Source of the DNA: Pyrus communis
Lineage: Eukaryota; Streptophyta; Magnoliopsida; Rosales; Rosaceae
Reading direction: 5' to 3'
NCBI RefSeq assembly: GCF_963583255.1
Contig: NC_084810.1
Coordinates: 10,809,853-10,873,852 of the forward strand
DNA: 64,000 bases
The notes beneath the pieces were generated by a model. That model worked only from the letters and a program-made list of their open reading frames with translations, did no database searches and was not told where the DNA came from. Shown piece by piece: positions 13,888 to 43,419 of the stretch (its first letter is position 1; each line of letters opens with the position of its first letter). Position numbers and translations under genes: made by a program.

Positions 13888-16033
13888 TGTGACAGCCCAT
13901 CTCGAATTATTTGTACCGTATGTGTGAAATGACGATTTTACCCTTGGTGGGTATTTGTCATTTTGGGGTGATTGTTTTGTTGTTTTGTTGGTTGCACCTG
14001 GACCACACACACCCACGCATCCACATCATCTTCCCCGTGTATCTCTCTCTGTCTCGAACACACTTTCTCTCTCTCCTTCTCACTTGTATGGACGGGGTTC
14101 AAAACCCTTGCAAACGTTGTAGATCGAAGTGGAAAATGGTACCTTTGTGTTCGTGAGGATCATACAAGTTTAACCATAACAAATTCAGGTAAGGAATCCT
14201 TCGATTCCACGTCGAACTAAGAATCTCCGATTTGGTCACTGTTCATGCACACGTGAAATATTGTTTTTCAGGGAATTTGAAGCTTTTAGGAAGCTTAGTG
14301 AGGTCCTTAGAAAGCTCGGGGTAGTTCATTGAGTGGAATTGGACGTCGGGATCGTGAGTTGCAAGTTTGGCCGATTTTTCTTGAATTTCTCCGACGACAT
14401 CTCGTGATCTTTGGGGCTTTAAACAGGTAAGGAAATGTTCTACAAGTTAAGAGCTTCCATTTGGTACTGGCTTCATGAAATTTGGTGAAGAAACGAGTGA
14501 GATATTAAAATTTGAAAAATATCCAGTTTTCCGACGACAGCAACGGTACCAGAGGAGTGCCGGAGAAGACAAGGGAATATTCCGTTAAGTTAATGGAATA
14601 TTCTTAATGGCATCAGTTTAGTTTTAACGGAATCTGTTAGGGTTTAACGGAATATTCCTGACGGCGTTAACTGACGCCGTCAGTGTGACTCGCATGTGGT
14701 CGCGTGTGGAGCCTCAAAAAATTATTTTAAAAATATGGGGATGTTTGTGAGGTTGAGTAGATCACGTTGGTATATCCAAACATCTCATTTGAGCATTGTA
14801 TGAGAAGTTATTACCTAGTTTTGGTTATGTGCTTTAAATTGACATTTTTATAGTTGTTTCGCATATAGGTAAGACCTATCGTGAGGATGAGTGCAGTCAC
14901 TCGAGGTAAAGGGATTACGACCCTTCCACATATTAGTGAGTGGGCTTTTGGTTTTCCATAGATACCTATATACTTGTGGTTTTTCCCAGAAAATGAAATG
15001 TAATGTTTATATGTTTCAAATGCCATGCATAGCGTTTGCCTATTTATTTATGCATTGGTAGTTGCATATATGTATGTTTAGTGTTGCGGACACATAGATA
15101 AGTGTCAGGTAAGTTTATGGTTTATCATTGTGAATTAATGGTTATGTGAGATGCATAGAGAGCTCATAACCTGCACCCCCGGTGTTAGTGCTCCCGCCCA
15201 AAGTAAGGCACAGTCCTTCACGTGATGTTCACCTCCCGCACCACACGCTCATCTTGGATCCAAGTTAGGTGCACGGTCCTGTCATACAAACCACTATAGG
15301 TGGTTCTAACTCGTAGATGACCCACGATTATTCACCCAGTCTTCATGTGATCGTAGTACTTGAGCGTATTTATTTACACCCAGTCCTGTCATACAGACCA
15401 CTTTAGGTGGTTCCAATTCATGTGCAAGTATAGTTAGTGAGTTGGGGATTTGAGCTTTAGATTCAGCCATACAGGTCACGTTAGGTGACTCTGGTTGACA
15501 TGTTACTTGCATTGATTGACATTACCTGGGTTACTTACATCTTATGTGGAGGCATTCGACATGGCATATTTTTGAACATGTTTTTGATATATGTGTATAT
15601 TCTATTTTCTGGGAAACTATACAGGTTTTACGACGAGGGGTTAGAACTTTTGATAATGAAATGATTTTGAAAAGCTTTGTTTTTGCCCACTCACACTTTC
15701 TGTTTTGCGCCCTTCCAGGTTCTAGTTAGAAACAGCTTTGATGGTTCACGAGGACTTGACGGTGGTTCTGACAGAACATCACAAATGTAGGATCACCTTT
15801 GGGTGTTGTGTAATTAGTATTCATTCTTCTAGACTGCACTTAGGCTTTCTGTGCTTTGATTATGTTTATCACACTTAATCTCACACTAGTGTATTACCTT
15901 AATTAGTTTATTTAGTAGTTTGGTTTTTATTTATTCGTACTTTTATTATTATCTTTTGCTTTCGCACTATGCACATGGCTACGTCACCCTCACGTGACGG
16001 CCAGCACACCTTGATTCCGATCGGGGTGTGTCA
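13888..16033 (+). repeat. Element 1 5' LTR
   Basis: 2146 bp, beginning TGTGACAGCC and ending GGGGTGTGTCA. It contains three palindromic modules (about 15281-15313, 15388-15420, 15466-15498), several CACGTGA words (about 15220, 15955-16005) and a CT-rich stretch near 14040-14075. Its 3' end is followed by GTT and then the primer-binding site. Confidence 0.92.
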
Positions 16034-16036
16034 GTT

Positions 16037-16049
16037 TGGTATCAGAGCA
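16037..16049 (+). promoter_or_regulatory. Primer-binding site, initiator Met tRNA type
   Basis: TGGTATCAGAGCA lies 3 bp after the 5' LTR. TGGTATCAGAGC is the usual plant LTR-element complement to the 3' end of initiator methionine tRNA. Confidence 0.88.
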
Positions 16050-16113
16050 TAGGTTTTGCAGTCCTGCATATTTTGTGAGTGTTCTAATTGTTTTGGTGTC
16101 TTCTGTCAGAACT

Positions 16114-17505
16114 ATGTCGCCTCATAGGGAACCACGTCGCTCTGCTGAGCTTAGTTTCTCCGATGTAGCTCAATTGGGGGAAGCTATGGCTACTGCTTTT
16201 CAGTCTGCGCTCTGCCCTCCCCAGAGGACTCCTTTGGAGACCATGTATAATTTAAAGATGGATAAGTTTGAGAGCCACGAGGGTTTTGAGGGAGCTGAGC
16301 GGTGGCTTGAGCATATTGAAAAGACTTTTCGAGTGTTGCATAATCAGGGGAATCTTCCTGTTGAAAAGTGGGTAAAGACGACTTCATGGTTCTTAGGTAA
16401 GGAATCATCATCCTAGTGGGGACAGGAGGTTTGTCATTTGACCCTAGAGGAAAAGGCTGACTGGGAAGTGGTTAAGCAGTTGTTTAGGAAAAAGTTTGTG
16501 CCTTCTGAGTACATTGGTCGTAAGAAGCAAGAATTTACTGAGTTGAGGCAAGGGAAGTTGACGGCGAATGAATATTATAGGAGGTTCACTGATTTATCTC
16601 GTTATTATCCGGAGATTGCTGCCAATCCGGGTGAGATGCTTCGTCATTTTTTATTGGGTACTAAGAACAAGTGACATTCTATGGCGACCACTACTCCTTG
16701 TAACTCTTATCAGGAGTTCTATGAGATTTTGTTGAGGATTGAGGATTCTAAGAATATGCCTAGCGAGAGTGAGGATGAAGAAAAAGATGGCAATCAAAGG
16801 AAAGACGATAAAGGCAAAGGTCAAGCATCTCAAGGACCTCGCAAGACTCAGAGTTTTAAGCAGAGTGGAGCTAGTTCAAGTTCTTCCAGCAGAGGTTTTA
16901 GTGCCACTGGTCAGGGAAGAGGTGGTAGATTTTCTGGGGGTCTTAGAGGCTAGAGACAGGGCGATACTGGTAGAGGAAGAGCTCCGTTTTGCCGCAGGTG
17001 TAACAATAGGCATTTTGGTGAATATAAGAGAGGCAGCAGTGGTTGTTTCACTTATGGGCAAATGGGACATAGAGCTGCAAATTGTCCCCAGAGTCAGCAG
17101 AGGCCCCATCAGTCTTTCTTACCACCACTTGCTCCAATCCAGCAGGTTCCAAGGCCTAGTAGTTTTGGTCAGATGGGTTGTGGTGGTGCCTATTATTATC
17201 AGGGTGATGTCGTTCCTTATGCTCCTAGACAGTATCTGTATCCTCAAGATCCTTATTCTTAAAGTGGGTATCCTCAGTACTCCGGAGGTTATATGCCGCA
17301 TCCTTCCATTCCAGTGGGTGGATCTCAGTGGTACCAGGGAGGACAGTGTCAGCAGGGAGAAATTGCTACTAGTAGTGCGGGATCTTCAAGGCAGTCTGGT
17401 CAGCCTAGTCAGGGGCGTAATGTGCAAAGTCGAGGTAGTCAGACTAGTAGAGGTCATGGTAGACGACAGCAGACCCAAGGGCGTATCCACAATATTTCTC
17501 TGTAG
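16114..17505 (+). pseudogene. Element 1 gag with zinc knuckles
   Basis: Gag (capsid/nucleocapsid) coding region. I chose the ATG at 16114 (MSPHREPRR) because the earlier in-frame ATG lies in the primer site. A retrotransposon gag domain spans about 16250-16680 (EGAERWLEHIEKTFRVL and, after a stop, ADWEVVKQLFRKKFVP). A Ser/Gly/Gln-rich region follows, then a CCHC knuckle (17041-17088) in which the second cysteine is tyrosine (CFTYGQMGHRAANC). The whole stretch stays in one frame but is cut by in-frame stops at 16414, 16672, 16951, 17260 and 17503. Each is one transition away from Trp, Arg or Gln. Confidence 0.85.
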
Positions 17506-17526
17506 GATGCTCAGAATAATCTTGAC

Positions 17527-17934
17527 TTGATTATGGGTACGTTAAATATCCTTGGTTATTTTGCTAGAGTATTGATTGATTGTGGTGTAACACATTATGT
17601 TATTTCATATACATTTGCTCAAGTGGCGCAACCTCACCCTACACCTTTAGGGTATGATTTAGAGTTTGTCATGCCTATAAGGGAGAGATGTTATATTGAT
17701 TGTGTGTATCTAGGATGTCCAGTGATGGTGGAGGATGTAGTTATGCCAGCTGACCTTATCCCTTTAGATATTGTTGATTTTGATGTGATTTTGGGCACAG
17801 ATTGGTTGCACCATAATCGTGCCAATATTGATTGTTATGGGAAAACTGTTACCTTCCATCTTCCTAGATTACCTGTGGTCACTGTTGTGGGTGAGCAGAG
17901 TGGGGTGAGACATGGCGTTATTTCTACTGTGTGA
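17527..17934 (+). pseudogene. Element 1 aspartic protease
   Basis: In the same frame as gag. The active-site region reads VLIDCGVTHYVIS where the family has D-S/T-G-A, so the catalytic Asp remains but the next residue is Cys. A typical 'DFDVILGTDWL' strand follows at about 17779-17811. In-frame stop TGA at 17932. Normally this releases gag and pol products; here it is uninterpretable as an active enzyme. Confidence 0.8.
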
Positions 17935-17943
17935 GCAAAAAGG

Positions 17944-18690
17944 TTGTTATCAAAAGGTTGCCAGGGATACTTAGCTCATGTAGTGTTGAACGATGTTGCT
18001 CCTAATAGCATGGAAGACGTAAAGGTAGTCAGGCATTTTCCTGATATTTTCCCTGACAATTTACCTGGATTGCCGCCAGACCGAGATGTGGAGTTCACTA
18101 TTGATTTGCTTCTAGGTACTAATCATATATCCTTAACTCCTTATAGAATGGCTCCTGCTGAGTTGAGGGAATTGAAAATCCAATTGCAGGAATTAGTGGA
18201 TAAAGGTTTTATTCAGCCTAGTACTTCACCCTAGGGAGCTCCAGTGTTGTTTGTGAGGAAGAAAGACGGGACTTTGAGGCTATGCATTGATTACCGGCAA
18301 TTGAATCGAGTAACAATTAAAAATCGTTATCCATTGCCGCGTATAAATGATTTGTTTGATCAGCTTCGAGGTGCTTATATATTTTCCAAGATTGATTTGA
18401 GCTTCGAGGTGCTTTCAAGACTCGTTTAGCAAGTGCGAATTTTGGTTAGATCAAGTGGCATTTTTGGGACATGTCATAGCTGCTCAAGGTATTTTGGTGG
18501 ATCCTCAAAAGGTAGCAGCAGTGGAGAATTGGGAGCGACCATGAACCGTCACTGAGGTGAGGAGTTTTTTTGGCTTAGGAGGATATTACCAACGGTTTGT
18601 AAAGGATTTTTTCGTGATTGCTTTACCACTGACGAGGTTAAGGAGGAAGGATGTTAAATTTGAGTGGGATGATAATTGTGTGCAGAGTTT
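17944..18690 (+). pseudogene. Element 1 reverse transcriptase lacking the palm core
   Basis: Fingers are recognisable: a PYRMAPAELRELK segment, then after a TAG at 18232 [12 protein letters not shown] and [20 protein letters not shown]. Sequence reaches FSKIDL at about 18394 and then jumps. Only an AFKTRF-like scrap remains (18411-18427) before [15 protein letters not shown] (from about 18428), which belongs downstream of the palm. The F(I/V)DD catalytic motif is therefore missing. A 15-bp duplicate of upstream sequence (18362-18376 copied at 18400-18414) sits at the junction. The downstream frame differs, so the net deletion is not a multiple of three. Confidence 0.85.
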
Positions 18691-19370
18691 CTAGCAATTG
18701 AAGTATTGTCTCACTTATGCACCTGTTTTGGCAATCTTGGATGATAATGGTAATTTCGAAGTCTACAGTGATGCTTCCTTAATTGGCTGGGGATGTGTGC
18801 TAATGCAACATGGTAGGGTGATTGCTTATGCTTCACGACAATTAAAGCCTCATGAGTTGAATTACCTTACGCATGATTTGGAGTTAGCGGCCATTATCTT
18901 TGCTTTGAAGATATGGAGACATTATCTTTATCGGGAAAAATGTAAGATCTTTACGGATCATAAGAGTCTTCAATATATTTTCACTCAGAGAGACCTTAAT
19001 CTTCGTCAGCGATGATGGTTGAAACTGCTTAGTGATTATGATTGCACAATTGATTATCACCCTAGTCGTGCGAATGTGGTAGCTGATGCACTTAGCAGAA
19101 AATCTCAGGGCCGTATTAACGCGTTGTACGCTAGTCGTGTTCCTCTTCTGGCAGACTTGAGATCAACTGGAGTACGGTTAGAGGTAGAAGATAAGGAAGT
19201 AGCCTTACTTGCTAATTTTCAAGTTAGGCCAATTTTAATTGATCGTATACTTGAAGCCCAGATGGTTGATGAAGAGCCCCAGGAAATAATTCAAGCAAGG
19301 AATCAGGGGAAAAAGAAAGACTTTAGAGTTCAAGAATCGGATGGCATGCTTATGCAGGAGAGCAGAATGT
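18691..19370 (+). pseudogene. Element 1 RNase H region
   Basis: Thumb/connection leads into RNase H. Recognisable catalytic strands are YSDAS (about 18762-18776), DLELAAI (about 18878) and FTDHKSLQ (about 18950), followed by the YHPSRANVVADALSRK tail (about 19057-19104). A TGA at 19012 breaks the frame. The acidic residues expected of RNase H are still present; only the reading frame is lost. Confidence 0.85.
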
Positions 19371-20420
19371 TTGTGCTGAATAATTTGGAATTAAAGAAAG
19401 CAATTCTTGATGAAGTGCATATCTTAGCTTATGCGATGCATCCTAGAGGTACTAAAATGTATCATACCATTTGACCATTTTATTATTGGCCCGGTATGAA
19501 AAACGAGATAGCTGAGTATGTAAGTAGGTGTGCCATTTGTTAACAGGTTAAAGCTGAAAGGAAGAAGTCGTTTGGGTTGTTGCAGCTGCTTCTCGTTCTA
19601 GAATGGAAATGGGAAAATATTACGATGGATTTTGTGTACAAGCTTCCGCGTACACATAATGGTTTTGATGGCATTTGGGTAATAGTTGATCTGCTTACTA
19701 AGTCAGCGCATTTTATTCCAGTGAGGGAAAAGTATTATTTGGGCCGATTAGCTAAATTATTCATATTGAAGATTGTGAAGTACCATGGTGTTCCAGTGAG
19801 TATTGTCTCGGATCGTGACCCAAGATTTACTTCTAAATTTTGGATGGCTTTTCAGGAAGCTTTGGGTACAAGATTACTCTACAGTACGACATATCATCCT
19901 CAAACAGACGGATAATCAGAGAGGACCATTCAGACGTTGGAGGATATGTTGAGATCTTCGGTATTGCAGTTTGGCGATGCTTGGCACAAACGGTTAGATT
20001 TAATGGAATTTGCCTGCAACAACAGCTTTCATTCGAGTATCGGCATGTCACCATTTGAGGCACTATATGGTAAATCTTGTCTTACACCCCTATGTTAGTC
20101 AGAGGTCGGAGAAAGAGTTTTGGTGGGCCCTGAGATTGTAGATGAGACTACTTAGAATGTTCAGGTAATTAAGTCTAACCTGAAAGCGACCCAGGATCGA
20201 CAAAAGAGCTTTGCGAACAGGCATGCCACTGACAAGGTGTATAAAGTTGGTGATTGGGTGTTTCTGAAGCTTTCATCCATGAAGAGGTGTCGTACGGTTT
20301 GGAAAGAAAGGTAAGTTAAGTGCCAGGTATATCGGACCATATATGATCACCGAGCAAGTTGGTGAAGTGGCTAACAGCTTGAGTTACCTTCTAAACTGGC
20401 TAGAGTACATAATGTTTTTC
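19371..20420 (+). pseudogene. Element 1 integrase
   Basis: An H2C2 zinc-binding segment (about 19405-19545, 'CAIC' followed by a stop) precedes the core. All three catalytic acidic positions are visible: ITMDFV (about 19618-19635), VSDRDPRF (about 19804-19827) and the Glu of TIQTLEDML (about 19927-19953). Stops occur at 19472, 19541, 19913, 20095 and 20153. Indels between about 20270 and 20420 scramble the tether before the chromodomain-like tail. Confidence 0.85.
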
Positions 20421-20422
20421 AT

Positions 20423-20671
20423 GTGTCCATACTTCGCCATTACGTTGCGGATCCGTCGCATGTGATACCTCCTCAACCATTGGAAATTAATCCGGATTTG
20501 ACATATGACGAGGAACCAGTAACGATTGTGGATTGGAAGGAAAAGGTTCTGAGGAACAAGACTGTGAGTTTAGTGAAAGTTTTGTGGAGGAATCACTCCG
20601 CGGAAGAGGCTACTTGGGAGACTGAAGACCAGATAAGAGATTTGTATCCTCGGTTGTTCTATGGTTACTAG
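20423..20671 (+). pseudogene. Element 1 chromodomain-like C terminus
   Basis: Open segment with ILRHYVADPSHVIPPQPLEI, then a chromodomain-type block (VDWKEKVLRNKTVSLVKVLW and an 'EATWETED' helix) ending at a natural stop at 20669. Chromovirus integrases carry such tails, which bind histone marks and bias insertion into heterochromatin. Confidence 0.8.
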
Positions 20672-20714
20672 TGGTTAGTTTGAGTTGTTATGAATTTCGG
20701 GACAAAATTTTTTT

Positions 20715-20727
20715 AAGGAGGGTAGGT
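20715..20727 (+). promoter_or_regulatory. Element 1 polypurine tract
   Basis: AAGGAGGGTAGGT directly precedes the 3' LTR, the expected place for the plus-strand primer. Confidence 0.75.
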
Positions 20728-22899
20728 TGTGACAGCTCATCCCGAATTATTTGTACCGTAGGTGTGGAATGACGATTTTACCCTTGGTGGGTATTTGTCA
20801 TTTTGGGGTGATTGTTTTGTTGTTTTGTTAGTTGCACCTCGACCACACACACCCACGTATCCATATCATCTTCCCGTGTATCTCTCTGTCTCGAACACAC
20901 ACACACACACACTTTCTCTCTCCTTCTCACTTGTATAGATGGGGTTCAAAACCCTTGCAAACGTTGCAAATCGAAGTGGAAAATGGTACCTTTGTGTTCG
21001 TGAGGATCATACGAGTTTAACCATACCAAACTCAGGTAAAGAATCCTTCGATTTCACGTCGAACCAGGAATCTCCGATTTGGTCACTGTTCATACACTCG
21101 TGAAATATGGTTTTTCAGGGAATTTGAAGCTTTTAGGAAGCTTAGTGAGGTCCTTAGGAAGCTCGAGGTGGTTCGTTGAGTGGGATTGGACGTCAGGATT
21201 ATGAGTTGCAAGTTTGGCCAATTTTTCTTGAATTTCTCCGACGACATCTCGTGATCTTTGGGGCTTTAAACAAGTAAGGAAATGTTCTACAAGTTAAAAG
21301 CTTCAATTTGGTACTCGTTTCATGAAATTTGGTGAAGAAACGAGTGAGATATTAAGATTTGAAAATTTTCCAGTTTTTCAACGACGATGACAGTACTGGA
21401 GGAGTGCCGGAGAAGATAAGGGAATATTCCGTTAAGTTAACAGAATATTCTTAACGGTGTCATATTTGTTTTAACGGAATCTATTATGGTTTAACAGAAT
21501 ATTCCTGACGTCGTCAATGTGACTGGCACGTGGCCGCGCGTGGAGGGCGCGTAGGGCCGTGCCTTCGCCGGTGTGTGGAGCCTCGAAAAATTATTTAAAA
21601 AATATGGGGATGTTCGTGAGGTTGAGTAGATCACGTTGGTATATCCAAACATCCCATTTGAGCATTGTACGAGAAGTTATTACCTAGTTTTGGTTATGTG
21701 CTTTAAATTGACGTTATAGTTGTTTCGCATATAGGTGAGACCTATCTTGAGGACGAGCGCAGTCACTCGAGGTAAGGGGGTTACGACCTTTCCACATATC
21801 AGTGAGTGGGCTTTTGGTTTTCCGTATGTACCTATATACTTGTGGTTTTTCCCAGAAAATGAAATGGAATGTTTATATGTTTTAAATGCCATGCATAGCG
21901 TTTGCCTATTTATTTATGCATTAGTAGTTGCATATATGTATGTTTAGTACTGCGGACATACAGGTAAGTGCCAGGTAAGTTTATGGTTTATGATTGTGAA
22001 TTAGTGGTTATGTGAGATGCATAGAGAGCTCATAACCTGCACCCCCGGTGTTAGTGCTCCCGCCCAGAGTAGGGCACAGTCCTTCATGTGATGTTCACCT
22101 CCCGCACCACACGCTCATCTTAGATCCAAGTTAAGTGCACAGTCTTGTCGTACAAACCACTATAAGTGGTTTCGACTCGTAGGTGACCCGTGATTATTCA
22201 CCCAGTCTTCACGTGATTATAGCACTTGAGCGTATTTATTTACACCCAATCCTGTCGTACAAACCACTTTAGGTGGTTCCGACTCATGTGCAGGTATAGT
22301 TAGTGAGTTAGGGATTTGAGCTCTAAATTCAGCCGTACAGGTCACGTTAAGTGACTCCGGTTGACATGTTACTTGCATTGATTGACATTACCTGAGTTAC
22401 TTACATTTTATGTAAAGGCATTCGACATGGCATATTTCTGAACATGTTTTTGATATATGTGTATATTCTATTTTCTGGGAAACTATATAGGTTTTATGGC
22501 GAGGGGTTAGAACTTTTGATAATGAAATGATTTTGAAAAGCTTTGTTTTTGCCCACTCACACTTTCTGTTTTGCGCCCCTCCAAGTTCTAGTTAGAAGCA
22601 GCTTTGGTGGTTCACGAGGACTTGACGGTGGTTCTGACAGAACATCACAAATGTAGGATCACCTTTGGGTGTTGTGTAATTAGTATTCGTTCTTTTGGAC
22701 TGCACTTAGGCTTTCTGTGCTCTGATTATGTTTATCACACTTAGTCTCACACTAGTGTATTACCTTAATTAGTTTATTTAGTAGTTTGGTTTTTATGTAT
22801 TCGTACTTTTATTATTATCTTTTGCTTTCGCACTGTGCACATAGCTACATCACTCTCACGTGATGGCCAGCACGCCTTGATTCCGATCGGGGTGTGTCA
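20728..22899 (+). repeat. Element 1 3' LTR
   Basis: 2172 bp, TGTGACAGCT to GTGTGTCA. It differs from the 5' LTR by many substitutions and small indels, including an expanded (CA)n run at about 20895-20912 and a roughly 30-bp GC-rich insertion near 21536-21570. The palindromic modules are retained (about 22147-22180, 22253-22287, 22332-22365). Confidence 0.92.
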
Positions 22900-24225: not shown

Positions 24226-26494
24226 TGTCACAACCCGTCCCGGAATTTTTAATTCCGAGGACGTGAAGATATGAAGATGCCCTTAAACGAGACTAAGGGG
24301 CGTAAAGTTGGCATTGGTTTTTACCTGAAGTTCCTAAACTAATGTTAATTGGAATATTCATTAGTTTTAGGGACTTAAATTTAAGACTTAGAACTAGGTT
24401 TATATGTTATAACTTGATGATTTGGGGATTGGGTAGGAACCCCACATCCCTCAAATCTCTCCCCCATTTCTGCATCTTGTCTCTCTCTCTCCTCCCTCAC
24501 AAATCTCTCATTCTCTTTGTCAGTTCTCTCTCTCTCTCATTCGAACTCACACGGACCACCCACAAACCACCCTAAAACTATACCAACGAAGGATCTAAGA
24601 CCACCATCGTACTCTTGAAGACCACACGAACACGATGGTACCAATTTCAGGTGAGTTTCACTTCGGAAAACATGGATTTCAATTTCACTGTGCGTGTGCA
24701 CTGTTCATGCACACGTAAAACTTGATGTTTTTTGGGATTTTGAAGCTTGTAGGAAGCTTGGTGAGGTCCTAAGGAAGCTCGGAGTGCTTCGTTTGAAGGA
24801 TTTGGACGTCGGGATCACGAACTGTAAGTTCGGCCGAATTTTCGTATTTTTGGAAAAGTTTGATTCCGTTGTTTTTAGGCCCTAAAACTAGTCCAACGTG
24901 GTAGATTATGATTAGGGCTTCATTTTGGTATAAATTACGTGAAAAATGGACGTAGGAACACGGAGAACGACAAGTTCAAAGTTTGGCCGGAGCTTTCGGG
25001 GCTTTTTCCGGCGAATCTACGGCGATTTAGGGGTCAAGGCAGGTATGGATGTGTTCGTCTCGTCAATACCTTCATTTTGATATATAGTACGTCGAAAATG
25101 GTTAAGAAATGAAGAAGTTATGACACTTTGAAGTTTACCCAGAAATTCCGGCAAAACACCCACCGCCGGCGAAACCAGTCCGGCGACGTGAGGAAGAAGA
25201 CGCGCGCGTGGGCAGCGCGTGAACAGGGCGCGTGGGGGCGTGTGAGAGCTCCAAATTGAGTTCTGAAAATTGTCACGTGTTCGTGACGTCGTGTAGATCA
25301 CCGTGGTAAATTCACACACCCAATTTGAGTAACGTATGAAAAAGTTATAGACGAATGTTTGTGTGTGCGTTTAATTGATGATTTTATAATTATTCTGTTA
25401 TAGGTGAAACTTGTACGAACGACGAATGTAACCAAACTAGGCGTGAGGGTTACGAGCCGGCTACATACCTGTGAGTGGGCTTTTGTTTTCCGTATATACC
25501 TATATACAATTATATTCCCAGAAATAGATTAAAAAGGAGTAATTGATTTATGCCATGCACTTTATTATTATCGCTTATGCATCATCACATGCATTAGTAG
25601 CGGCATACATTTATATATATATATATATATATATATGTGTTTTTGGTGCTGTGGACGCACAGGTAAGTGCCAGGTAAGTGGTATTTATGTTTGTATTCAG
25701 TAGTAGCTTGAGATGCTTAGAGAGCTCATAATCTGCACCCCCGGTGTTAGTGCTCCCGCCCAGAGAGGGGCAGAGTCCTTCACGTGATGTTCACCCGCAC
25801 CACACGCTCGCCTTGGATCCAAGTAGGTGCATAGCCTTGTCGTGCAGACCACATTAGGTGGTTCCGACTCGTAGGTGACCCGCGATTATTCGCACAGTCT
25901 TCACGTGATCGTAGCACTAGAGCGTATATATTACACCCAGTCCTGTCGTACAAACCACGTTAGGTGGTTCCGACTCGTGTGCAGATTCAGATATTGAGTT
26001 GAGATTGGAGCTCTATCTGCAGCCGTACAGGTCACGTTAGGTGACTCCCGGCTGCCAGATTATATGTTATTGATGTGAATTATGCTTGAGCACTTACATT
26101 TATTATGAGATTCTGATGTGGCATATTCTCGAGCATGAATGGCATATTTTGGAGCATGATTGGCATATTTATACATACGTATATATGTTCATTTTCTGGG
26201 AAGTATACAGGTTTTACGGCGAGGGGTTAGAATGTATTTTGCTAAAGAGTTTTCAAAGAGCTTTGTTTTTGCCCACTCACGCTTTTGGTTTTGCGCCCCT
26301 CCAGGTTCAAGAATTGCAAAGGTGTGGTGACTACGAGGAAATTCAACGGTGTTCTGACAGAATGGACCAAATTAGGACTCACCTTTGGGTGTTTCATCTT
26401 AGAAATTGTATCTTTAAAGCTTCCGTACTGTGTAAATGGTTACGTCACTCTCACGTGACGGCCAGCATGCCCTCCTTCGGGACGGGGTGTGTCA
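24226..26494 (+). repeat. Element 2 5' LTR
   Basis: 2269 bp. It contains an (AT)n run near 25613-25637, the three palindromic modules (25839-25868, 25945-25974, 26021-26053) and CACGTGA words at about 25779, 25912 and 26452. It keeps about 128 bp (around 25384-25512) that the 3' LTR lacks. Confidence 0.92.
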
Positions 26495-26496
26495 GT

Positions 26497-26508
26497 TGGT
26501 ATCAGAGC
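26497..26508 (+). promoter_or_regulatory. Primer-binding site, initiator Met tRNA type
   Basis: TGGTATCAGAGC lies 2 bp after the 5' LTR, the same primer class as element 1. Confidence 0.88.
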
Positions 26509-26559
26509 TTAGTTTCAATCTTGGACATCTTGAGAAGTTCTAGTGAATTGTGTCAGAAC

Positions 26560-29500
26560 TACACCGCCTCGTAGCAAACCACGTAGTTAGAGGAATTTAG
26601 TCTCCCTGATTTAGCTGTTAGGGGAAACTATTATTTTGGTGATTCAGTATATTATCAAAAAGGGACATTTTAAGATGGGTTATGAGTTGAATTTGAATCA
26701 CCTTATGAAATGATGAACCTGAGGGAGCAAAGTGATGGATTAATCATTTGGAAAAGATGTTTTAGATTATGCAAGTCAAAGGAATCTTCCTTTTGACAGA
26801 AGGGTTGAGACGACTACCTGGTTTGAGTTATGAACTTGTATCCTGGTGGAAACAGGAGTATAATTCGTTGTCACCGAAGGAAACAGCCGATTGAGAATTG
26901 TTTAAGGACTTGTTTAATGAAAAGAATTATTCCTTCAGCATCTTATGATGGTAGAAAGCAAGAGTTTGCAAATGTGAGACAAGGAAAACTGACGATTAAT
27001 GAGTATTATAAAAAGTTCTCAGACTTGCCTCGTCCCATTCGAATATTGCTGCTATTTTGATTGAAGTGTTATATTGTTTTAGGCTGGGTGGCATAAGGCA
27101 GTGGTACTTTGGGTGACCACTATCCATTGTAATTCTTACCAGGAGTATACAAGATATTGTTGAGCCTTGAGGACTCTGAGAACATGTTCAGCGAGAGTAA
27201 AGAAGAATGATAAAAGAATGGGAATCAAAAGAGGACGATAAAGTTAATGATTCGTCATATCAAGAATATAGAAAGATTCAGAGCTTCAAGAGAAGTGAAG
27301 CTAGAGTTAATTCTTCCAACTGAGGTTTTACCACTGGTCAAAGTCAAAGTGATAGATTTACTGGAAATTCCAGATTCAGAGTCAAGGTGACTCGAGTAAG
27401 GGAAATGTACCTTGTGCAGCAGGTACAAGACTAAACACTTTGGAAAGTGTGGAATCAGTGAATGTGTTTGTATAGACAGAAGGGATATAGAGTTATGAAT
27501 TGTCCCTAGAATTAGTTATTACCCGACAGTTTCCTTGATACCACCAATATCAGTCCAGCAGGTGTTTGGATCATTAGTTTGGGTTATATGAACTGTGGGT
27601 GCCAAGATGTTTGATAAGTTGAATGTTCAGCTGAACAGACCACGAAAGGTGGATCCGGCTGACACATGAGGAATTGATGAGTAAGTTGTACAGGTTACTA
27701 TAGGTAACTCCGGCTAATATACTAGCATAAATAGTTGAGCTAGAGAATCAGCCGTACAAGTCATTCTAGTTGACTCTGGCTGATGTATTTCGTATTATGG
27801 ATGATGTTGCCAAAGAAAGTGATGATGGAGCATGATTGAGGTGTTTATATGTAATTATCCCTGTGTGGAGTAAGATGGAAATGTAACACCTTCAGGAATT
27901 GTTGCTTACTTATCGAGACAACAGTGATTTATCTGTATTACGGGCTGCAGACTGTAATATTTATAACTTATTGGTTGGATCTGTTAAGCAAGTAAACAAG
28001 TAGGTTACCTACATGAGTGGGTGTTATTCAAGGTGTTCAATAAAGGTGAAAGTTAAAGTTATACCAGTGAATTTTATTTTGTGGGATATCGAGGAACTGG
28101 AAGTGATTTTAGGCACAGTTTAATGGCGTTAAATCATGACAAGATGGATTACTACGGGAACTTAGTTACTTTCCATCGATTTGATTGATCAGAGATTACT
28201 TTGGTGGGCAGGCAAAGTGGATTGAGTTAGGCCGTTAACATTGCTGTGAAAGCAAAGAGATTGTTATCAGAAGGTTACAAGGGTACTCATCTTATGCGGT
28301 ACTACATAATGTTGCTCCGACTAATATGAAAAATGTAAAAGGGATTGGACACTTTTTCAATGTTTTCCCTGAAAGTTTACCTGGATTGCCTTCAGGCAGA
28401 AATGTGAAGATCAATATCGATTTGTTTCCAGGTATAAAATTTTATGTTAGAGATTAGTTCATGATGAGTTAAGAGAATTGGAAATTTAGTTGAAAGAATT
28501 GGTTGATAAAAGTTTCATTCAACCTAATACAACACTTTTGAGGAGCCCAGTTCGTTGGTGAAAAAGAAAATGGACTTTAAAGACTATCTATTGATTATAG
28601 ACCATGGAATCGGGTAACGATTAAGAACCGTTATCCATGATGGTGTACTGATGTTTAATGAATCAGCTCAGAGGTATTTGTGTAATTTCAAAGATCGACT
28701 TGAGGTCTGTCCATTACCAATTGAAGATTTTGAGCGACGTTGATCCTAAGATTGTTTTCTGGACTTGTAATAGTCTTTATAAATTTTGGTGATACTATGC
28801 GGATACTCATGTTGTTTCATAAGTTGATGGATGAAGTATTCCAGGAATGCCTTGATAAATTGTTATCATTTTCATGGACGATATTCTGGTACATTCTGAG
28901 CCAGAGCAGAGCATGTAAACATATTAAGTCGGTGAAGTAAAGATTGTTAGAACGTTGGTTGTATGCTAAGTTTAGCAAATGCTAAAGTTAAATGAATCAA
29001 GTGGCATTCTAAGATTTGCTATATCTGCTGAAGGTATTCAAGTGAATCCTTAAAAGGCAGCAGGAATTGAGAAATTGGAATAACCACGCGCCGTAATTGA
29101 GATTCGGAATTTCTTAGCTTACCAGACTATCTCGGATGGTTGTGAAAGATTTTTCAGTCATTACTTTGTCATTGACAAGATTGTTGAGAAAAGAGGTTAT
29201 GTATGAGTGGGAAGGAAATTGTGAGCAAAGGATTCAACAACTGAAGCATTTCCTCACTCATGCACGTAATTTAGTATTCCCAGAGAATAGTGGTAATCAT
29301 AAATTTTTAGTGATGTTTCTTGAATGGTATTGGATGCATGTTGATGCAAATGTTAGGGTGATTACATACGTTTCACGACAAAAGGAACCTCATGAAATGA
29401 ATTACCCTACTGGTGATTTGGAAGTCATGATTACCATTCTTGCTGTGAAGTTATGAAGACATTATATTTGGTAAGAATGCAAGATTTTTACGAATCCAAA

Positions 29501-30836
29501 AAGTCTCCAATATCCATTACTTGGAAGGATTTTGATATGAGGCAGCCAAGGTGGATTGAATTGTTTAATGAACATGATTGTACGACCAGGGTGATCGTAA
29601 AATTGTTCTAGCTGATGCACTTGGTGAGAAGACTGCGGTAAGAATTAATGTCTGGCACGCTTGCCAATATTGTCTTCTTGTGGATTGGAAATCAACTGAA
29701 GTAAAGTTGAGAATGGAAGATTGAGAAGAAGTTGTAATTGCTAATTTTCAAGTTAAGTCTTTTTAGTAAGGTCGTACTCAAGACTCAAATGGTTAACGAA
29801 GAAAATTAAGAATTAACCAAGGCAAAGAAAGAAGGGAAAAAGAAAGATTGCTGAGTTCGAGAATAGGATGGTTATGATTGAACTTGAAGTGATAGTTGAT
29901 CAATGTACCAAGTTAGTACATTTACTCCAGTGTTGAGTAACAACCACAGTGCAACAGTACTTATATGTTTTATGGAGAAGAGATTTGGGTTACGGAACTG
30001 CTGAGTTTCTTAAGTATGTTGGTTGCGCAGTTTCCGATGTAACGCCATAAGGACCATGAAATGTGTCGATTTTGCTGATTTGTGGAAGAAATGCTTCTGG
30101 ATAGAGAAGATTCGATCACGAAAGAGTTTTGGTAGGCCCTGAAACTATGGATGAGTCTTCTCAAAGTATTCAGGTGATTAAGTTTAACCTGAGAGTAGCC
30201 AGGAATGGCAAAAGAGATTAATAGTTGAACATGTCACTAATTGAGTGTTTAACGTAGATGATCTTATAATTTTGAAGTTTTCACTTTAGAAAAGTATGAT
30301 TCGGCTGGGAAAGGAAAGCAAATTAAGTCCTAAGTACATCGGACTTTATGTGATCATCGAAGAGTAGGTGAAGTTGCTTGAATTACTTCCAGAGTTATTG
30401 TAAGAGCATGATGTGTTTCATGATTCAACATTTTTAGAAATTTGATCACGAAAAGAAATAGTGAGATTTGGAAAGGAGACAAAATAAGTCTTAAACACAT
30501 CAGACCGTTTTTGACCACTAAAGGAATTGATGAAGTTGCATACAAGTGGTGATGTCTTCAGAATTGGCTAAGGTGCATAATGTATTATATTTCGATGCGT
30601 TGTCACTAGGTGGCAGATTCGTCACATAGAGTTCCGGTGCAACTATTGAGAATTAATCCGGATTAGACTGGTTGAGGAACCAAGGACGACTTTGGATTGG
30701 AAAAAGAATGTATTGAGAATTAAGACAGTGTAATTGGTAAAGAATTTGTGAAGAAAGCGGTCAGTGGAAGAAATTACGTGGGAGAAGGAGAATCGGATGA
30801 GAGAGATTTACCCGAAGCTATTGTATGAGTATAGAT
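26560..30836 (+). pseudogene. Element 2 shattered gag-pol
   Basis: Collinear but heavily decayed remains can be followed. Gag helices lie at about 26800-27060 (GRKQEFANVRQGKLTINEYY). A protease-like 'VILGT' strand is near 28108. A reverse-transcriptase FMDDILVHSEPEQ segment (28871-28909) lies out of frame with its surroundings. A connection/RNase H stretch spans 29136-29456. An integrase scrap (about 29888) reads VIVDQCTKLVH. A chromodomain-like tail spans about 30695-30836. The integrase core after the first Asp appears mostly deleted. Stops and frame changes occur every few tens of codons, so no product is possible. Confidence 0.85.
27628..27781 (+). repeat. Three LTR-type palindromic modules inside element 2
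   Basis: Modules at 27628-27661, 27688-27714 and 27750-27781 copy the LTR palindromes: outer arms CAGC or AGCC against GGCTG or GGCT, inner arms such as GTTAC/GTAAC and GTCA/TGAC. They sit between the gag and protease remnants, where chromoviruses normally have coding sequence. Confidence 0.65.
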
Positions 30837-30876
30837 GATTTAGTTGGTTGTTGGAATTTCGGGGACGAAATTCTAT

Positions 30877-30889
30877 AAGGAGGGAAGAT
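30877..30889 (+). promoter_or_regulatory. Element 2 polypurine tract
   Basis: AAGGAGGGAAGAT directly before the 3' LTR, nearly the same as in element 1. Unlike the coding region it looks intact. Confidence 0.75.
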
Positions 30890-33012
30890 TGTCACAACCC
30901 GTCCCGGAATTTTTAATTCCGAGGACGTGAAGATATGAAGATGCCCTTAAACGAGACTAAGGGGCGTAAAGTTGGCATTGGTTTTTACCTGAAGTTCCTA
31001 AACTAATGTTAATTGGAATATTCATTAGTTTTAGGGACTTGAATTTAAGACTTAGAACTAGGTTTATATGTTATAACTTGATGATTTGGGGATTGGGTAG
31101 GAACCCCACATCCCTCAAATCTCTCCCCCATTTCTGCATCTTGTCTCTCTCTCTCCTCCCTCACAAATCTCTTATTCTCTCTGTCAGTTCTCTCTCTCTC
31201 CTTCGAACTCACACGGACCACCCACAAACCACCCTAAAACTATACCAACGAAGGATCTAAGACCACCATCGTACTCCTGAAGACCACACGAACACGATGG
31301 TACCAATTTCAGGTGAGTTTCACTTCGGAAAACATGGATTTCAATTTCACTGTGCGTGTGCACTGTTCATGCACACGTAAAACTTGATGTTTTTTGGGAT
31401 TTTGAAGCTTGTAGGAAGCTTGGTGAGGTCCTAAGGAAGCTCGGAGTGCTTCGTTTGAAGGATTTGGACGTCGGGATCACGAACTGTAAGTTCGGCCGAA
31501 TTTTCGTATTTTTGGAAAAGTTTGATTCCGTTGTTTTTAGGCCCTAAAACTAGTCCAACGTGGTAGATTATGATTAGGGCTTCATTTTGGTATAAATTAC
31601 GTGAAAAATGGACGTAGGAACACGGAGAACGACAAGTTCAAAGTTTGGCCGGAGCTTTCGGGGCTTTTTCCGGCGAATCTATGGCGAGTTAGGGGTCAAG
31701 GCAGGTATGGATGTGTTCGTCTCGTCAATACCTTCATTTTGATATATAGTACGTCGAAAATGGTTAAGAAATGAAGAAGTTATCACACTTTGAAGTTTAC
31801 CCAGAAATTCCGGCAAAACACCCACCGCTGGCGAAACCAGTCCGGCGACGCGAGGAAGAAGACGCGCGCGTGGGCAGCGCGTGGGCAGCGCGTGAGAGCT
31901 CCAAATTGAGTTCTGAAAATTGTCACGTGTTCGTGACGTCGTGTAGATCACCGTGGTATATTCACACACCCAATTTGAGTAACGTATGAAAAAGTTATGG
32001 ACGAATGTTTGTGTGTGCGTTTAATTGATGATTCTATTCCCAGAAATAGATTAAAAAGGAGTAATTGATTTATGCCATGCACTTTATTATTATCGCTTAT
32101 GCATCATCACATGCATTAGTAGCGGCATACATTTATATATATATATATATATATGTGTTTTTGGTGCTGTGGACGCACAGGTAAGTGCCAGGTAAGTGGT
32201 ATTTATGTTTGTATTCAGTAGTAGCTTGAGATGCTTAGAGAGCTCATAATCTGCACCCCCGGTGTTAGTGCTCCCGCCCAGAGAGGGGCAGAGTCCTTCA
32301 CGTGATGTTCACCCGCACCACACGCTCGCCTTGGATCCAAGTAGGTGCATAGCCTTGTCGTGCAGACCACATTAGGTGGTTCCGACTCGTAGGTGACCCG
32401 CGATTATTCGCACAGTCTTCACGTGATCGTAGCACTAGAGCGTATATATTACACCCAGTCCTGTCGTACAAACCACGTTAGGTGGTTCCGACTCGTGTGC
32501 AGATTCAGATATTGAGTTGAGATTGGAGCTCTATCTGCAGCCGTACAGGTCACGTTAGGTGACTCCCGGCTGCCAGATTATATGTTATTGATGTGAATTA
32601 TGCTTGAGCACTTACATTTATTATGAGATTCTGATGTGGCATATTCTCGAGCATGAATGGCATATTTTGGAGCATGATTGGCATATTTATACATACGTAT
32701 ATATGTTCATTTTCTGGGAAGTATACAGGTTTTACGGCGAGGGGTTAGAATGTATTTTGCTAAAGAGTTTTCAAAGAGCTTTGTTTTTGCCCACTCACGC
32801 TTTTGGTTTTGCGCCCCTCCAGGTTCAAGAATTGCAAAGGTGTGGTGACTACGAGGAAATTCAACGGTGTTCTGACAGAATGGACCAAATTAGGACTCAC
32901 CTTTGGGTGTTTCATCTTAGAAATTGTATCTTTAAAGCTTCCGTACTGTGTAAATGGTTACGTCACTCTCACGTGACGGCCAGCATGCCCTCCTTCGGGA
33001 CGGGGTGTGTCA
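30890..33012 (+). repeat. Element 2 3' LTR
   Basis: 2123 bp. Beyond about a dozen substitutions it differs from the 5' LTR by a deletion of about 128 bp at about 32034, a 12-bp loss in the GCGCGTG-rich stretch (about 31863-31893) and a shorter (AT)n run. The modules are kept (about 32358-32387, 32464-32493, 32540-32572). Confidence 0.92.
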
Positions 33013-33839: not shown

Positions 33840-33983
33840 TGGGAAACTTTCATTAGTTGAAAAAGGTAAGCATCGATCTCCATGCAAAGCAAGAAAGAGC
33901 GATGACGAACATGGTATTAACCAAGACGATGGAAAACTGGACAACAGAAACATGCTGATTGGTCTTAGAGCTGGAGGGCTGTA
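33840..33983 (+). pseudogene. Polyphenol oxidase fragment, part 1
   Basis: Reads NQDDGKLDNRNMLIGL then RAGGLY up to the copia insertion. The 'LDRRNMLLGLGGLYG' region of plant polyphenol oxidases lies just after the chloroplast transit peptide. It continues after the copia element at 39262. A short phrase (ACCAAGACGATGG) is duplicated at about 33831 and 33917. Confidence 0.7.
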
Positions 33984-34244
33984 TGTTAGGAGTATTATAT
34001 GAATGGATGAGATGTTGCCAAATGTCAATAGATTAGTCTTGCAGTTATAAGGTTGTTAGAAGATAGCTTAGTTAGGAAGTTGTCTTAGATAATATAAATA
34101 ACCTTTGTAATGAAACAGTGAAGGTTAATGAGAAAATAGTAAACACAATTCAGAAATATATCTTGCTCTCCAAGTATTCTTTCTCTCTTTACTTCTCTCT
34201 CTATCTTCTTCTTCTTCTCTAATATCTGTTTAGATTGGTTTACA
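33984..34244 (+). repeat. Copia 5' LTR
   Basis: 261 bp, TGTTAGGAGTATTAT to GATTGGTTTACA. It is followed immediately by TGGTATCATCGCAGG (34245-34259), a primer-binding-site candidate whose first eight bases fit methionine-type tRNA. Confidence 0.92.
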
Positions 34245-34474
34245 TGGTATCATCGCAGGAAAAAGCTTAAAGCTTTGGGGTGTATCGATCTGGGATTTCT
34301 GTATCTGCTTCCGTTTCTGCTATATGTGTCTCTTTCTTTCTCTCTTCTATTTCTTTCTTCTTGATTTGGGTCTTTTCTGCTCGAGTTAGGGTTCATTCTT
34401 TTGTGTTTGGTTTTCTGCACACCAAGTGTTCGACGTTTGTTCTCTGTAACTTTCGGTGAAGCAATTCTACCAAA

Positions 34475-35605
34475 ATGGTGACCGTGTCTCAGTTGCAAAT
34501 CTTGCAATCGCCTATTACATCTCTTCTCTCCTCTGTCTCTACGTCCGTAACCATGAAGCTGGACGATACAAATTACTTGACTTGGCATTTCCAGATGCAG
34601 CTGTTGTTGGAAGGCTATGGCATTATGGGGTTTGTCGATGGGTCTACTCCTTGCCCTTCTTGATTTTCTGATGTGATTTCTGGGGATTCTGAAGTTGTTT
34701 CGGGTAGTACTACTGCACAAGTTGAATTTGATGCATACAGGATTTGGAAAATGCATGACAAAGCGTTGATGCAGCTTATTTCTGCCACTCTTTCGCCTCC
34801 TGCAATTTCTTGTGCAATTGGGAGTATAAGTTCTCTGGATTTGTGGACTCGTCTGAAAGAACAATTCTCTACTGTTACTCGATCCAGTATTTTCCAGATG
34901 AAATCTGAGTTACAAACTATCAAGAAAGGTAATGATTCCATCACTCTGTATCTGCAAAGGATCAAGGAAGCTCGCGATTATTTGTCTGCTGCTGGTGTTC
35001 ATTTTGACGATGATGATATTGTCATTCTTACATTGACTGGTTTACCTTCTGAGTTCAATACCATTCGATCAGTCATTAGGGGCCGTGACACAGTTATTTC
35101 TTTGAAAGATCTTCGTTCCCAACTCCTTGTTGAAGAAACAATGCTTGAAACTATGCATGCTGCTCCTTTGCTTACTGCTTTGGTTGCTCAACAGCCGGGT
35201 TTTCCTTCTAAGAATTCTGGTGGTTTTATGTCTCAGAATCACAACTCCAATTATCAGTATAATGGTTCTCGAGGGTTCAATAACAAGAATAAAGGCAGAG
35301 ATCGGTTTCATTCCAATAACAGGTTTGGCACCAACAAGCCCTTCTTTTCTAATTTTGGCCCTGGAATTTTGGGCAATTCTCCACAACAGTTTGGTTCTTC
35401 TCCATTGATGACCTGCCAAATCTGTGGCAAGCCTAATCATCTTGCCACTACTTGTCGTTTTAGAAATACTTCTGTTTCTCAAGGCTGCCAAATCTGTGGG
35501 AAAACTAATCATTTTGCTGATACTTGTCGATTTCGAAATACTGGGGTTAATTCAGGATGTCAAATCTGTGGGAACTCTAGTCATAGTGCTGAGTTTTGTT
35601 TCTAG
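34475..35605 (+). pseudogene. Copia gag with three zinc knuckles
   Basis: Starts at ATG 34475. A copia gag domain (LDDTNYLTWHFQMQLLLEG, later a 'LDLWTRLKEQFS' and 'YLQRIKEARD' region) is followed by a Ser/Asn/Gly-rich linker and three CCHC knuckles with exact 72-bp spacing. They start at 35414 (CQICGKPNHLATTC), 35486 (CQICGKTNHFADTC) and 35558 (CQICGNSSHSAEFC). In-frame stops at 34661 (TGA) and 35603 (TAG) break an otherwise continuous frame. Confidence 0.88.
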
Positions 35606-35623
35606 AAGCGCTCTAATGATCCG

Positions 35624-37400
35624 ATGACTGCCATGTATGCTCACAACAACTTTGGAACTCAGTCTATTTCTCCTCAGTCATCTGCTTCATCTCAGCAAGT
35701 TTGGCTCACTGACTCAGGAGCAACTAATCACATGACCACTGAGTTGCAGAATCTGTCTCTTGCAACTCCTTATCCATCCACTGAGACTATCCAAGCTGCC
35801 AATGGTGAAGGTTTAGCCATATCTCATATTGGCTCCACCACTCTTCACACTCCATTACAAACTCTGAAATTAAATTCTGTTTTATATGTTCCGAAATTAA
35901 CACAGAATCTGCTGTCAGTTCATAGAATCTGCTTGGACAATAATTGTTGGATAATCTTTGATGCTTTTTGTTTCTGGATTCAGGACAAAACCACAGGGAG
36001 GATACTCTACAAAGGCATGTGCAGTAATGGGGTGTATCTGATTCGTTCTTCCACATGTGGTGCTTCTTCAAAACTTGCCTATGCTGCTGCTTATCTTGGA
36101 CAACAAGTGAATTCAAGATTATGGCATAACAGACTAGGTCATCCTTCTAATCCTATAGTATCTTAGATTTTAAGAAAGTCCAGAGTGTCTTGTAGTCCTG
36201 ATTCATTGCCTCTGTTGTGTTCTAACTGTCTGGAAGGCAAGTTTACAAAACTTCCTTTTCCTGTGTCTCAGTTTAAGTCTGTAAAACCTTTTGAGATCAT
36301 AGTGATGTTTGGGGTCCAGCTCCTTGTTTGTCCATTGAAGGGTTCAAGTATTATGTGACCTTCATTGATGAGTGTACTCGTTATACTTGGCTGTTTCCAA
36401 TAAGTAATAAAAGTGATGTTTACTCAACTTTTGTCTCTTTCTATCAATACATTTCAACTCAATTTGATGTCTCTGTGAAAACATTACAAACAGATGGGGG
36501 AGGGGAGTATATAGGGAAATCTTTTCAAGCCTTTCTTTTGAATAAAGGAATTCTTCATCATATGTCATGTCCTCATACCCCTGAGCAAAACGGCCTAGCT
36601 GAGCGCAAACATAGGCATATAGTTGAGACTTCCATCACTTTGTTACAAACAGCTTCTTTACCCTCTCTTTTTTGGTCCTATGCAGTTCAAACTTCTGTCT
36701 TTCTTATCAATAGGATGCCATCTTCTACTTTGGATAATAAATCCCCATTTGAGCTACTTTTTCATGCCATTCCCGAAATTCAACATCTTCGAGTTTTTGG
36801 TTGCTCTTGTTTCCCACTCTTGAGACCTTATAATAGTACTAAACTTCAACCTAGAACTACAAAATGTGTCTTCTTGGGGTATGCTACTAAATTTAAAGGG
36901 TACATCTGTTTTGAGGTGACTAAGAAACGGTTCTATATATCAAGACATGTTCTTTTTGATGAATCTGAATTTCCTTATTCCAACCTAGTGTCTTCTGTTA
37001 AACCAGTTGATTCCCCTGTCCTTATCTCTCCTGTTTCTCCTTCTGGGTTGGTACCAAATAATGATAATGTGATGGTTGTGCCTTCTGTTTCTTCTTCTAG
37101 TTTGATGCAGTCTGGGTCCTCACAGTCTGCTCCACCTAGTTCTGTAGCCCCTAGGTGTCACCCCATCACTGCCCCCAGTTTGTTCAATGGATCTAGTTTG
37201 TCTATGCCCTCTGCACCATCAGGTACCCATACTCTCCCTGGTGATCTTCCTGAGACTGCCCCCATTACTAGCACAGCCGATCAACCAGTATCCTCTTCTG
37301 TTCCTGTGGTATCTGAATTTCAGCCTGACCACCTTCAAGTAGTCCTCTCTGTTCCATCTTTTAATTTGCATCCAATGCAAACTCGATCGAATAGTGGTAT
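35624..37400 (+). pseudogene. Copia protease and integrase
   Basis: Protease shows WLTDSGATNHMT (about 35702). The integrase zinc segment LWHNRLGHPS (about 36118) is followed by a TAG at 36164 and CSNCLEGK (about 36220-36243). A small indel near 36300 shifts the frame. The core keeps [10 protein letters not shown] (about 36361), [10 protein letters not shown] (about 36490) and [15 protein letters not shown] (about 36583). The C-terminal part is Ser/Pro-rich. Confidence 0.88.
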
Positions 37401-39001: not shown

Positions 39002-39256
39002 GAGTATTATATGAATGGATGAGATGTTGCCAAATGTCAATAGATTAGTCTTGTAGTTATAAGGTTGTTAGAAGATAGCTTAGTTAGGAAGTTGTCTTAG
39101 ATAGTATAAATAACCTTTGTAATGAAACAGTGAAGGTTAATGAGAAAATAGTAAACACAATTCAGAAATATATCTTGCTCTCCAAGCATTCTTTCTCTCT
39201 TTACTTCTCTCTCTATCTTCTTCTTCTTCTCTAATATCTGTTTAGATTGGTTTACA
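38996..39256 (+). repeat. Copia 3' LTR
   Basis: 261 bp, same ends as the 5' LTR, three differences by eye, followed by the target duplication CTGTA. Confidence 0.92.
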
Positions 39257-43290: not shown

Positions 43291-43419
43291 AATCAGAAAT
43301 TATGTAACAGAACCATGAGTGAAAAAAAAAAACATTTAGAGATTATGTAACGGGACCATGAGTGAAAAAAAAACATTCGAAGATTATTCTGGTGACCGCC
43401 CAAAATTTCATTTTGTTCG

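Follow-up and report, generated by a model that had tools for sequence, protein, structure and literature searches.

Nested palindromic modules in the LTRs of two putative chromovirus families of pear: a possible dyad-symmetric regulatory cassette

When examining two LTR retrotransposons in a 64,000-nucleotide stretch of Pyrus communis DNA (hereinafter, the window), we found that each of their four LTRs carries, at matching places, three nested inverted repeats of 30-35 bp, within the part of the LTR that is conserved best. We tentatively take the two elements to represent related chromovirus families and their modules to be a repeated cis-regulatory cassette with dyad symmetry. A conserved symmetric cassette of this kind, if real, would offer a handle on what drives and what silences this abundant group, as well as a marker for comparing LTRs that otherwise barely align; for plant Metaviridae, LTR hidden Markov models could not be built because LTR length varies strongly (PMC3601003).

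Both elements lie on the forward strand. Self-comparison and alignment delimit element 1 at 13888-22899, with LTRs of 2146 bp (13888-16033) and 2172 bp (20728-22899) that are 91% alike, and element 2 at 24226-33012, with LTRs of 2269 bp (24226-26494) and 2123 bp (30890-33012) that are 97 and 99% alike in two stretches, the 3' LTR being without one stretch that is present in its 5' counterpart. The elements are flanked by 5-bp target site duplications, AATGT and CATAA, respectively. On reading the sequence, the purine tracts of both elements and the primer binding site of element 2 were found at the expected places: in element 2, the primer binding site, TGGTATCAGAGC, which we take to be a match to tRNA-Met, starts two bases past the 5' LTR, and the purine tract precedes the 3' LTR. 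The terminal inverted repeat of the element 2 LTR extends beyond the usual TG/CA: positions 24226-24241 and 26479-26494, TGTCACAACCCGTCCC and GGGACGGGGTGTGTCA, match imperfectly as inverted copies over 16 nt.

The Pfam matches of element 1 to RVP_2 (86.5 bits) and RT_RNaseH (104.4 bits) are above the respective cut-offs, and we assume that these protease and RNase H sequences are of the Ty3/gypsy type. The matches to the integrase domain rve (19544-19912; E = 3.1e-5, 24.6 bits against a cut-off of 32.6) and to Chromo (20375-20668; E = 4.7e-5, 23.7 bits against a cut-off of 25.1) are statistically significant while staying under the curated thresholds. Taken together, the protease and RNase H pieces and the weaker integrase and chromodomain matches make element 1 most likely a chromovirus; the scan of element 2 covered one piece only. 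The 5-bp duplications, the primer binding site of element 2 and the purine tracts agree with those of plant chromoviruses of the Tekay/Del clade. By LTR length, the clade is probably Tekay/Del: at 2.1-2.3 kb, the LTRs described here are nearer to those of beet Tekay elements (2.6-3.0 kb, one of them truncated) than to those of Reina (0.42-0.50 kb) or CRM (0.4-1.3 kb), in a comparison that covered the table rows for these three clades, with Galadriel outside it (PMC3605345). Two further repeats of the window deserve mention. A third element-like unit at 33968-39256 is bounded by 277-bp direct repeats that are 97% alike, with three open frames (310, 571 and 353 amino acids) between them, the last of which just reaches the second repeat; it is probably a short-LTR retrotransposon. 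Positions 41097-43313 are occupied by tandemly repeated units of about 350 bp; measured against a single reference copy, they alternate between 64% and 92% identity, a pattern resembling that of a dimeric higher-order repeat.

In the 5' LTR of element 2, module 1 (25839-25868; RNA fold of -11.2 kcal/mol, z = -1.89) consists of the outer stem GTCG/CGAC, the inner stem ACCAC/GTGGT and the loop ATTAG, and module 2 (25945-25974; -11.1 kcal/mol, z = -2.25) has the same stems around the loop GTTAG. Module 3 (26020-26054; -17.1 kcal/mol, z = -3.78) combines the outer stem CAGCCG/CGGCTG and the inner stem GTCAC/GTGAC with the loop GTTAG. The three copies in the 3' LTR, at 32357-32386, 32463-32492 and 32538-32572, are identical to those in the 5' LTR. 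In the 3' LTR of element 1, modules 1 (22147-22176; z = -4.25) and 2 (22254-22283; z = -2.50) retain nine of nine core pairs, and module 3 (22330-22363; z = -3.52) has nine standard pairs, one of the outer ones being G-T. The 5' LTR of this element shows eroded outer stems in modules 1 (15281-15310; eight of nine core pairs, z = -1.91) and 2 (15388-15417; seven of nine, z = -1.51), and module 3 (15464-15497; z = -2.89) again has nine standard pairs including one G-T. An initial sequence-only reading had placed the three modules at these positions in element 2, spelled out the same stems, extended the set to all four LTRs and noticed erosion of some outer pairs in element 1; on re-examination, all of this held, with module 3 one pair longer than originally described and the erosion amounting to three missing pairs, all of them outer-stem pairs in the first two modules of the 5' LTR.

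The nine core pairs are complete in all six modules of element 2, and standard pairs fill 78 of the 81 core cells when the nine distinct module sequences are counted; the inner 5-bp stem is Watson-Crick paired in each of the nine, and the unpaired sequence TACA is kept in eight. These counts come from a hand alignment, used because the MAFFT alignment misplaces the extra base in module 3 of element 2; this base was omitted, and the identical copies of element 2 were counted once. Several short motifs can be read within the modules, namely, CCGAC in modules 1 and 2, which is presumably a DRE core, GTTAGGT (ACCTAAC on the other strand), which we take to be an AC-element MYB site, and CGTACA, which, as far as we can judge, resembles an SBP-box site. 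Separately, both arms of an inverted repeat in the 3' LTR of element 1 now read CATCAC/GTGATG, as expected from CpG decay.

Inverted repeats as such are common in this DNA: loosely defined nested ones occupy 85 places (40-base bins) in the window, compared with 56 +/- 4.7 in 20 shuffles. Each LTR of element 2 contains eight such places, a number that was reached by none of 300 shuffles, with an AT run supplying some of them, and each LTR of element 1 contains three, which was reached by 45 and 30 of 300 shuffles. By contrast, the rigid geometry of modules 1 and 2 with nine of nine pairs was found at six places on the forward strand of the window, all of them copies of these two modules, and at a single, AT-rich place on the reverse strand, so a chance origin of modules 1 and 2 is ruled out by the rigid-geometry scan, albeit not by the loose count in element 1. 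The geometry of module 3 is less distinctive, with nine of nine pairs at six forward-strand places, only two of which are module 3, leaving four others. The core CCACNTTAGGTGG, with at most two mismatches, has 25 matches on both strands, module copies included, compared with 3.0 expected, and no clear further module copy emerged from this search of the window; each LTR has three. In the window, there were no Rfam matches at the gathering score. Searches with DNA patterns, protein pieces and blastn in viral, bacterial and archaeal contig and plasmid collections yielded no relatives, a result that has no bearing on the distribution of the modules in plants.

An indication of constraint on the pairing or symmetry of the modules comes from comparing modules 3 and 2 of element 2, where seven of the 30 core columns carry substitutions. 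Six of these form three compensatory pairs (T-A to C-G, A-T to G-C and C-G to T-A), and under random placement at least three such pairs are expected with P = 0.0011 if only transitions are allowed and P = 0.00013 for mixed changes, values that are optimistic given that the modules were chosen for being palindromic. When the arms of module 3 are matched against those of modules 1 and 2, the fraction of Watson-Crick pairs drops from 93% to 56% and, with G-T counted, that of standard pairs from 78/81 (96%) to 255/324 (79%). These changes support a constraint on pairing or symmetry, with the qualification that, being common to both families, they represent a single evolutionary step. Between the two families, we saw no fixed compensatory change at corresponding positions. 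The proposal that both arms of the modules change together stands for module 3 compared with modules 1 and 2, that is, for three pairs on one branch, and is not confirmed for the comparison between families; nor is it pairing alone that is conserved, because 57 of the 58 paired columns are identical between the families, so the sequence is kept as well.

The modules are part of a conserved LTR block (25740-26060 in element 2), in which 288 of 319 columns are alike between the families (about 90%), compared with 1090 of 1702 (64%) in the LTR outside the block. Within the block, unpaired module columns are alike in 31 of 36 cases (one more is a gap) and the remaining columns in 200 of 225. With a column considered diverged when both copies of element 1 differ from element 2, the paired columns (1/58 diverged) are better conserved than the rest of the block (25/225; Fisher p = 0.023) and than the unpaired module columns (5/36; p = 0.029), a comparison that involves two families only. 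When CpG columns are left out, significance is lost (1/44 against 22/197, p = 0.088). The differences that accumulated between the two LTRs of element 1 after insertion do not spare the stems, affecting 8 of the 58 paired columns compared with 18 of the other 225. Seven of these eight differences fall in CpG columns, and in modules 1 and 3 of the 5' LTR the innermost pair of the outer stem has changed from G-C to A-T, at CpG sites. The contrast between the family-level and the post-insertion differences makes the stems look protected in the mobile phase and unprotected in the resident copy. The suggestion of selection on the modules is, accordingly, moderately upheld for the time when the elements were mobile, on the strength of the low divergence of the paired columns and the compensation in module 3. 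The paired-looking changes within the 5' LTR of element 1 fit CpG decay, and since two such decays, turning G-C into A-T, mimic compensation, any covariation test on old copies must mask CpG.

Interleaved with the modules are two CACGTG boxes, themselves palindromes, at 25781 and 25902. Because the combination of a box and a module occurs twice, modules 1 and 2, each with its upstream CACGTG, are probably tandem duplicates. A TATA-like sequence, TATATAT, is located 126 bp past module 3 in both LTRs of element 2 (26180-26186 in the 5' LTR) and could serve as a promoter. At the corresponding, AT-rich place of element 1 there is no exact TATATA, the one at 22484 in the 3' LTR being in another alignment column, and element 2 has further TATATAT sequences before the modules (25612-25636) and between modules 1 and 2 (25925); for these reasons, the modules are placed in U3 only tentatively. 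Just upstream of the modules there are twin exact matches to the 5' splice site (CAGGTAAGT, twice, 11 bp apart) at 25660 and 25671, with counterparts at 32178/32189 and 21961/21972 and a single one (15106) in the 5' LTR of element 1, and an acceptor-like CCCCTCCAGG ends downstream of the modules at 26305, its AG being lost in the 3' LTR of element 1. Exact MAGGTRAGT occurs 11 times on the forward strand of the window, nine of these in the four LTRs, and twice on the reverse strand, both in the LTRs of element 2. These matches suggest an intron within the LTR. One more exact 5' splice-site match, CAGGTGAGT, is found early in both LTRs of element 2 (24648 and 31310), in each case after a CT-rich stretch that resembles a 5' UTR.

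Under the interpretation that we tentatively favor, the cassette would most likely occupy the U3 part of the LTR and might act as an enhancer. Modules 1 and 2 would be tandem duplicates and module 3 an older, diverged copy in which the symmetry was kept, with selection matching the arms for as long as the elements were mobile; conceivably, the simplest cause of the matched arms is a symmetric (dimeric) DNA-binding protein that reads the modules near the promoter. After insertion, the presumably methylated modules would decay as such DNA does generally. A regulatory cassette read as DNA appears to be the least demanding reading as it would explain the kept sequence, the symmetry and the interleaved CACGTG boxes; the conservation of the unpaired TACA also suits the reading of sequence rather than pairing alone. 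Further points in its favor are the TATA-like site past module 3 in element 2 and the Sirevirus precedent, in which LTR palindromes precede the TATA box (PMC2829016). There are points against it: a single protein would need to accept two half-sites because that of module 3 differs, the TATA-like site at 26180 is inexact in element 1, and the strong 5' splice-site matches before the block indicate that the block could be transcribed.

Transcription of the block is precisely what is required if the modules are instead RNA hairpins in the LTR transcript, located in the leader, in an LTR intron or at the 3' end and selected for pairing, an explanation that we consider somewhat unlikely. The exact 5' splice-site matches upstream and the acceptor-like site downstream do suggest that transcription may read through the LTR; single modules fold better on the sense strand than their shuffled versions in all nine distinct copies (z from -1.51 to -4.25), and module 3 is the strongest 35-nt hairpin in both LTRs of element 2. 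Furthermore, the only fixed change in a paired column between the families, in module 3 of element 1, leaves a G-U pair on the sense strand, so RNA hairpins account for the compensatory changes equally well and for this single change slightly better than a DNA-level reading does. The folding of larger regions points the other way. The entire 321-nt block as RNA reaches z = -1.50, with 10 of 100 shuffles as good, and its fold contains all three inner stems but, among the outer stems, that of module 3 alone, with none of the four outer pairs formed in modules 1 and 2; these two rank only 13th and 14th among the local hairpins of the element 2 5' LTR. Folding by itself does not mark out the modules. 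The same block folds better as DNA (z = -2.61, with 2 of 100 shuffles as good); the hairpin or cruciform that the sequence-only reading envisaged stays hypothetical, and a dimer-binding site would look alike. Nothing in the analysis speaks for a packaging or dimerization signal, also proposed in that reading. To the element, hairpins could be costly if the host processed them into small RNAs. With the cut-off of -40 kcal/mol for 110-nt windows taken from PMC10760457, in the four LTRs the windows under this value that overlap the block number 1 of 432, 1 of 403, 0 of 408 and 0 of 413, that is, at most one per LTR, and a small-RNA hotspot due to low folding energy is not indicated. Also unlikely, in our view, is that the modules are a conserved array of hairpins in which pairing persists as the sequence varies from copy to copy, and which, as the Ty3/gypsy equivalent of the Sirevirus palindromes, serves the RNA of the element in packaging, in priming or in the splicing of an LTR intron.

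Selection on the modules may be dispensed with altogether if the palindrome arose once and was copied in tandem, its arms being kept alike not by function but by template switching during reverse transcription, a process that in hairpins can copy one arm onto the other. This scenario gains from the apparent tandem duplication of modules 1 and 2 together with their CACGTG boxes and from the fact that the three paired changes setting module 3 apart form a single set; we nevertheless regard it as quite unlikely, given that it explains neither the about 90% conservation of the block, compared with 64% in the rest of the LTR, nor the paired columns being the least diverged of all. It is very improbable that the apparent covariation as a whole merely reflects CpG decay, whereby deamination in both arms of a palindrome yields complementary changes without selection. 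The preponderance of CpG columns among the post-insertion differences in the stems and the G-C to A-T changes in modules 1 and 3 are what such decay would produce, and for the 5' LTR of element 1 this explanation stands; it is contradicted for the three pairs that distinguish module 3 from modules 1 and 2, which are outside CpG sites and common to both families. A cis-regulatory cassette read as DNA is the interpretation that we tentatively retain.

Symmetric cis elements of LTR retrotransposons are not without parallel, and box I of the Ty1/copia element Tnt1 is similar to the modules in this respect, a likeness by description, the modules being known from sequence alone. Tnt1 box I and similar symmetric LTR activators are named in PMC2829016. 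Among Ty3/gypsy elements, Retrosat2 of rice, which is listed under Tekay/Del (PMC6317226), has long LTRs with matches to regulatory elements, C-repeat/DRE included (PMC3485330), and thus resembles the elements described here in LTR length and in a C-repeat/DRE that can be set beside the CCGAC of modules 1 and 2; in the main text of the latter paper, there is no occurrence of palindrom, hairpin or inverted repeat. Among the papers listed in literature searches, and judging from titles and the openings of abstracts, we found no printed description of such modules in chromovirus LTRs, and the module strings themselves matched, within paper texts, only papers whose titles and abstracts show no relation to the subject. 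An obvious peak of miRNA-like structure is generally missing from maize Ty3 elements taken as a class, and the peak in Copia LTRs is made by palindromes (PMC10760457).

The closest known parallel contradicts the initial impression that no named feature matches the modules. The LTRs of Sireviruses, which belong to Ty1/copia, contain repeated palindromic motifs (RM boxes) that have their own sequence in each element while the symmetry is kept (PMC2829016); a follow-up on these motifs in maize is Bousios et al. 2016, as cited in PMC10760457. RM boxes are 10-20 bp long, with a CGG-CCG core in 12 of 13 elements, and number at least eight per element in the linker and 3' LTR, with 3 to 14 per 3' LTR; they lie upstream of the TATA box, and their clusters define CpG islands (PMC2829016). 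The likeness consists in repeated palindromes in plant LTRs, the symmetry of which outlasts the sequence. There are also differences. The host here is of the Ty3/gypsy type, as judged by the protease and RNase H and by the chromodomain-like piece after the integrase; the core is ACCAC/GTGGT or GTCAC/GTGAC instead of CGG-CCG; each LTR has three nested stems of 30-35 bp; and the block is not enriched in CpG compared with the rest of the LTR (in element 2, the observed/expected ratio is 0.93 for the block and 1.11 for the LTR sequence preceding it). The Sirevirus palindromes precede the TATA box; in element 2, TATATAT follows module 3 but also occurs before and between the modules, and in element 1 the site after module 3 is inexact. 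By superfamily, core, copy number and CpG content, the modules described here are comparable to the Sirevirus palindromes without being members of that group.
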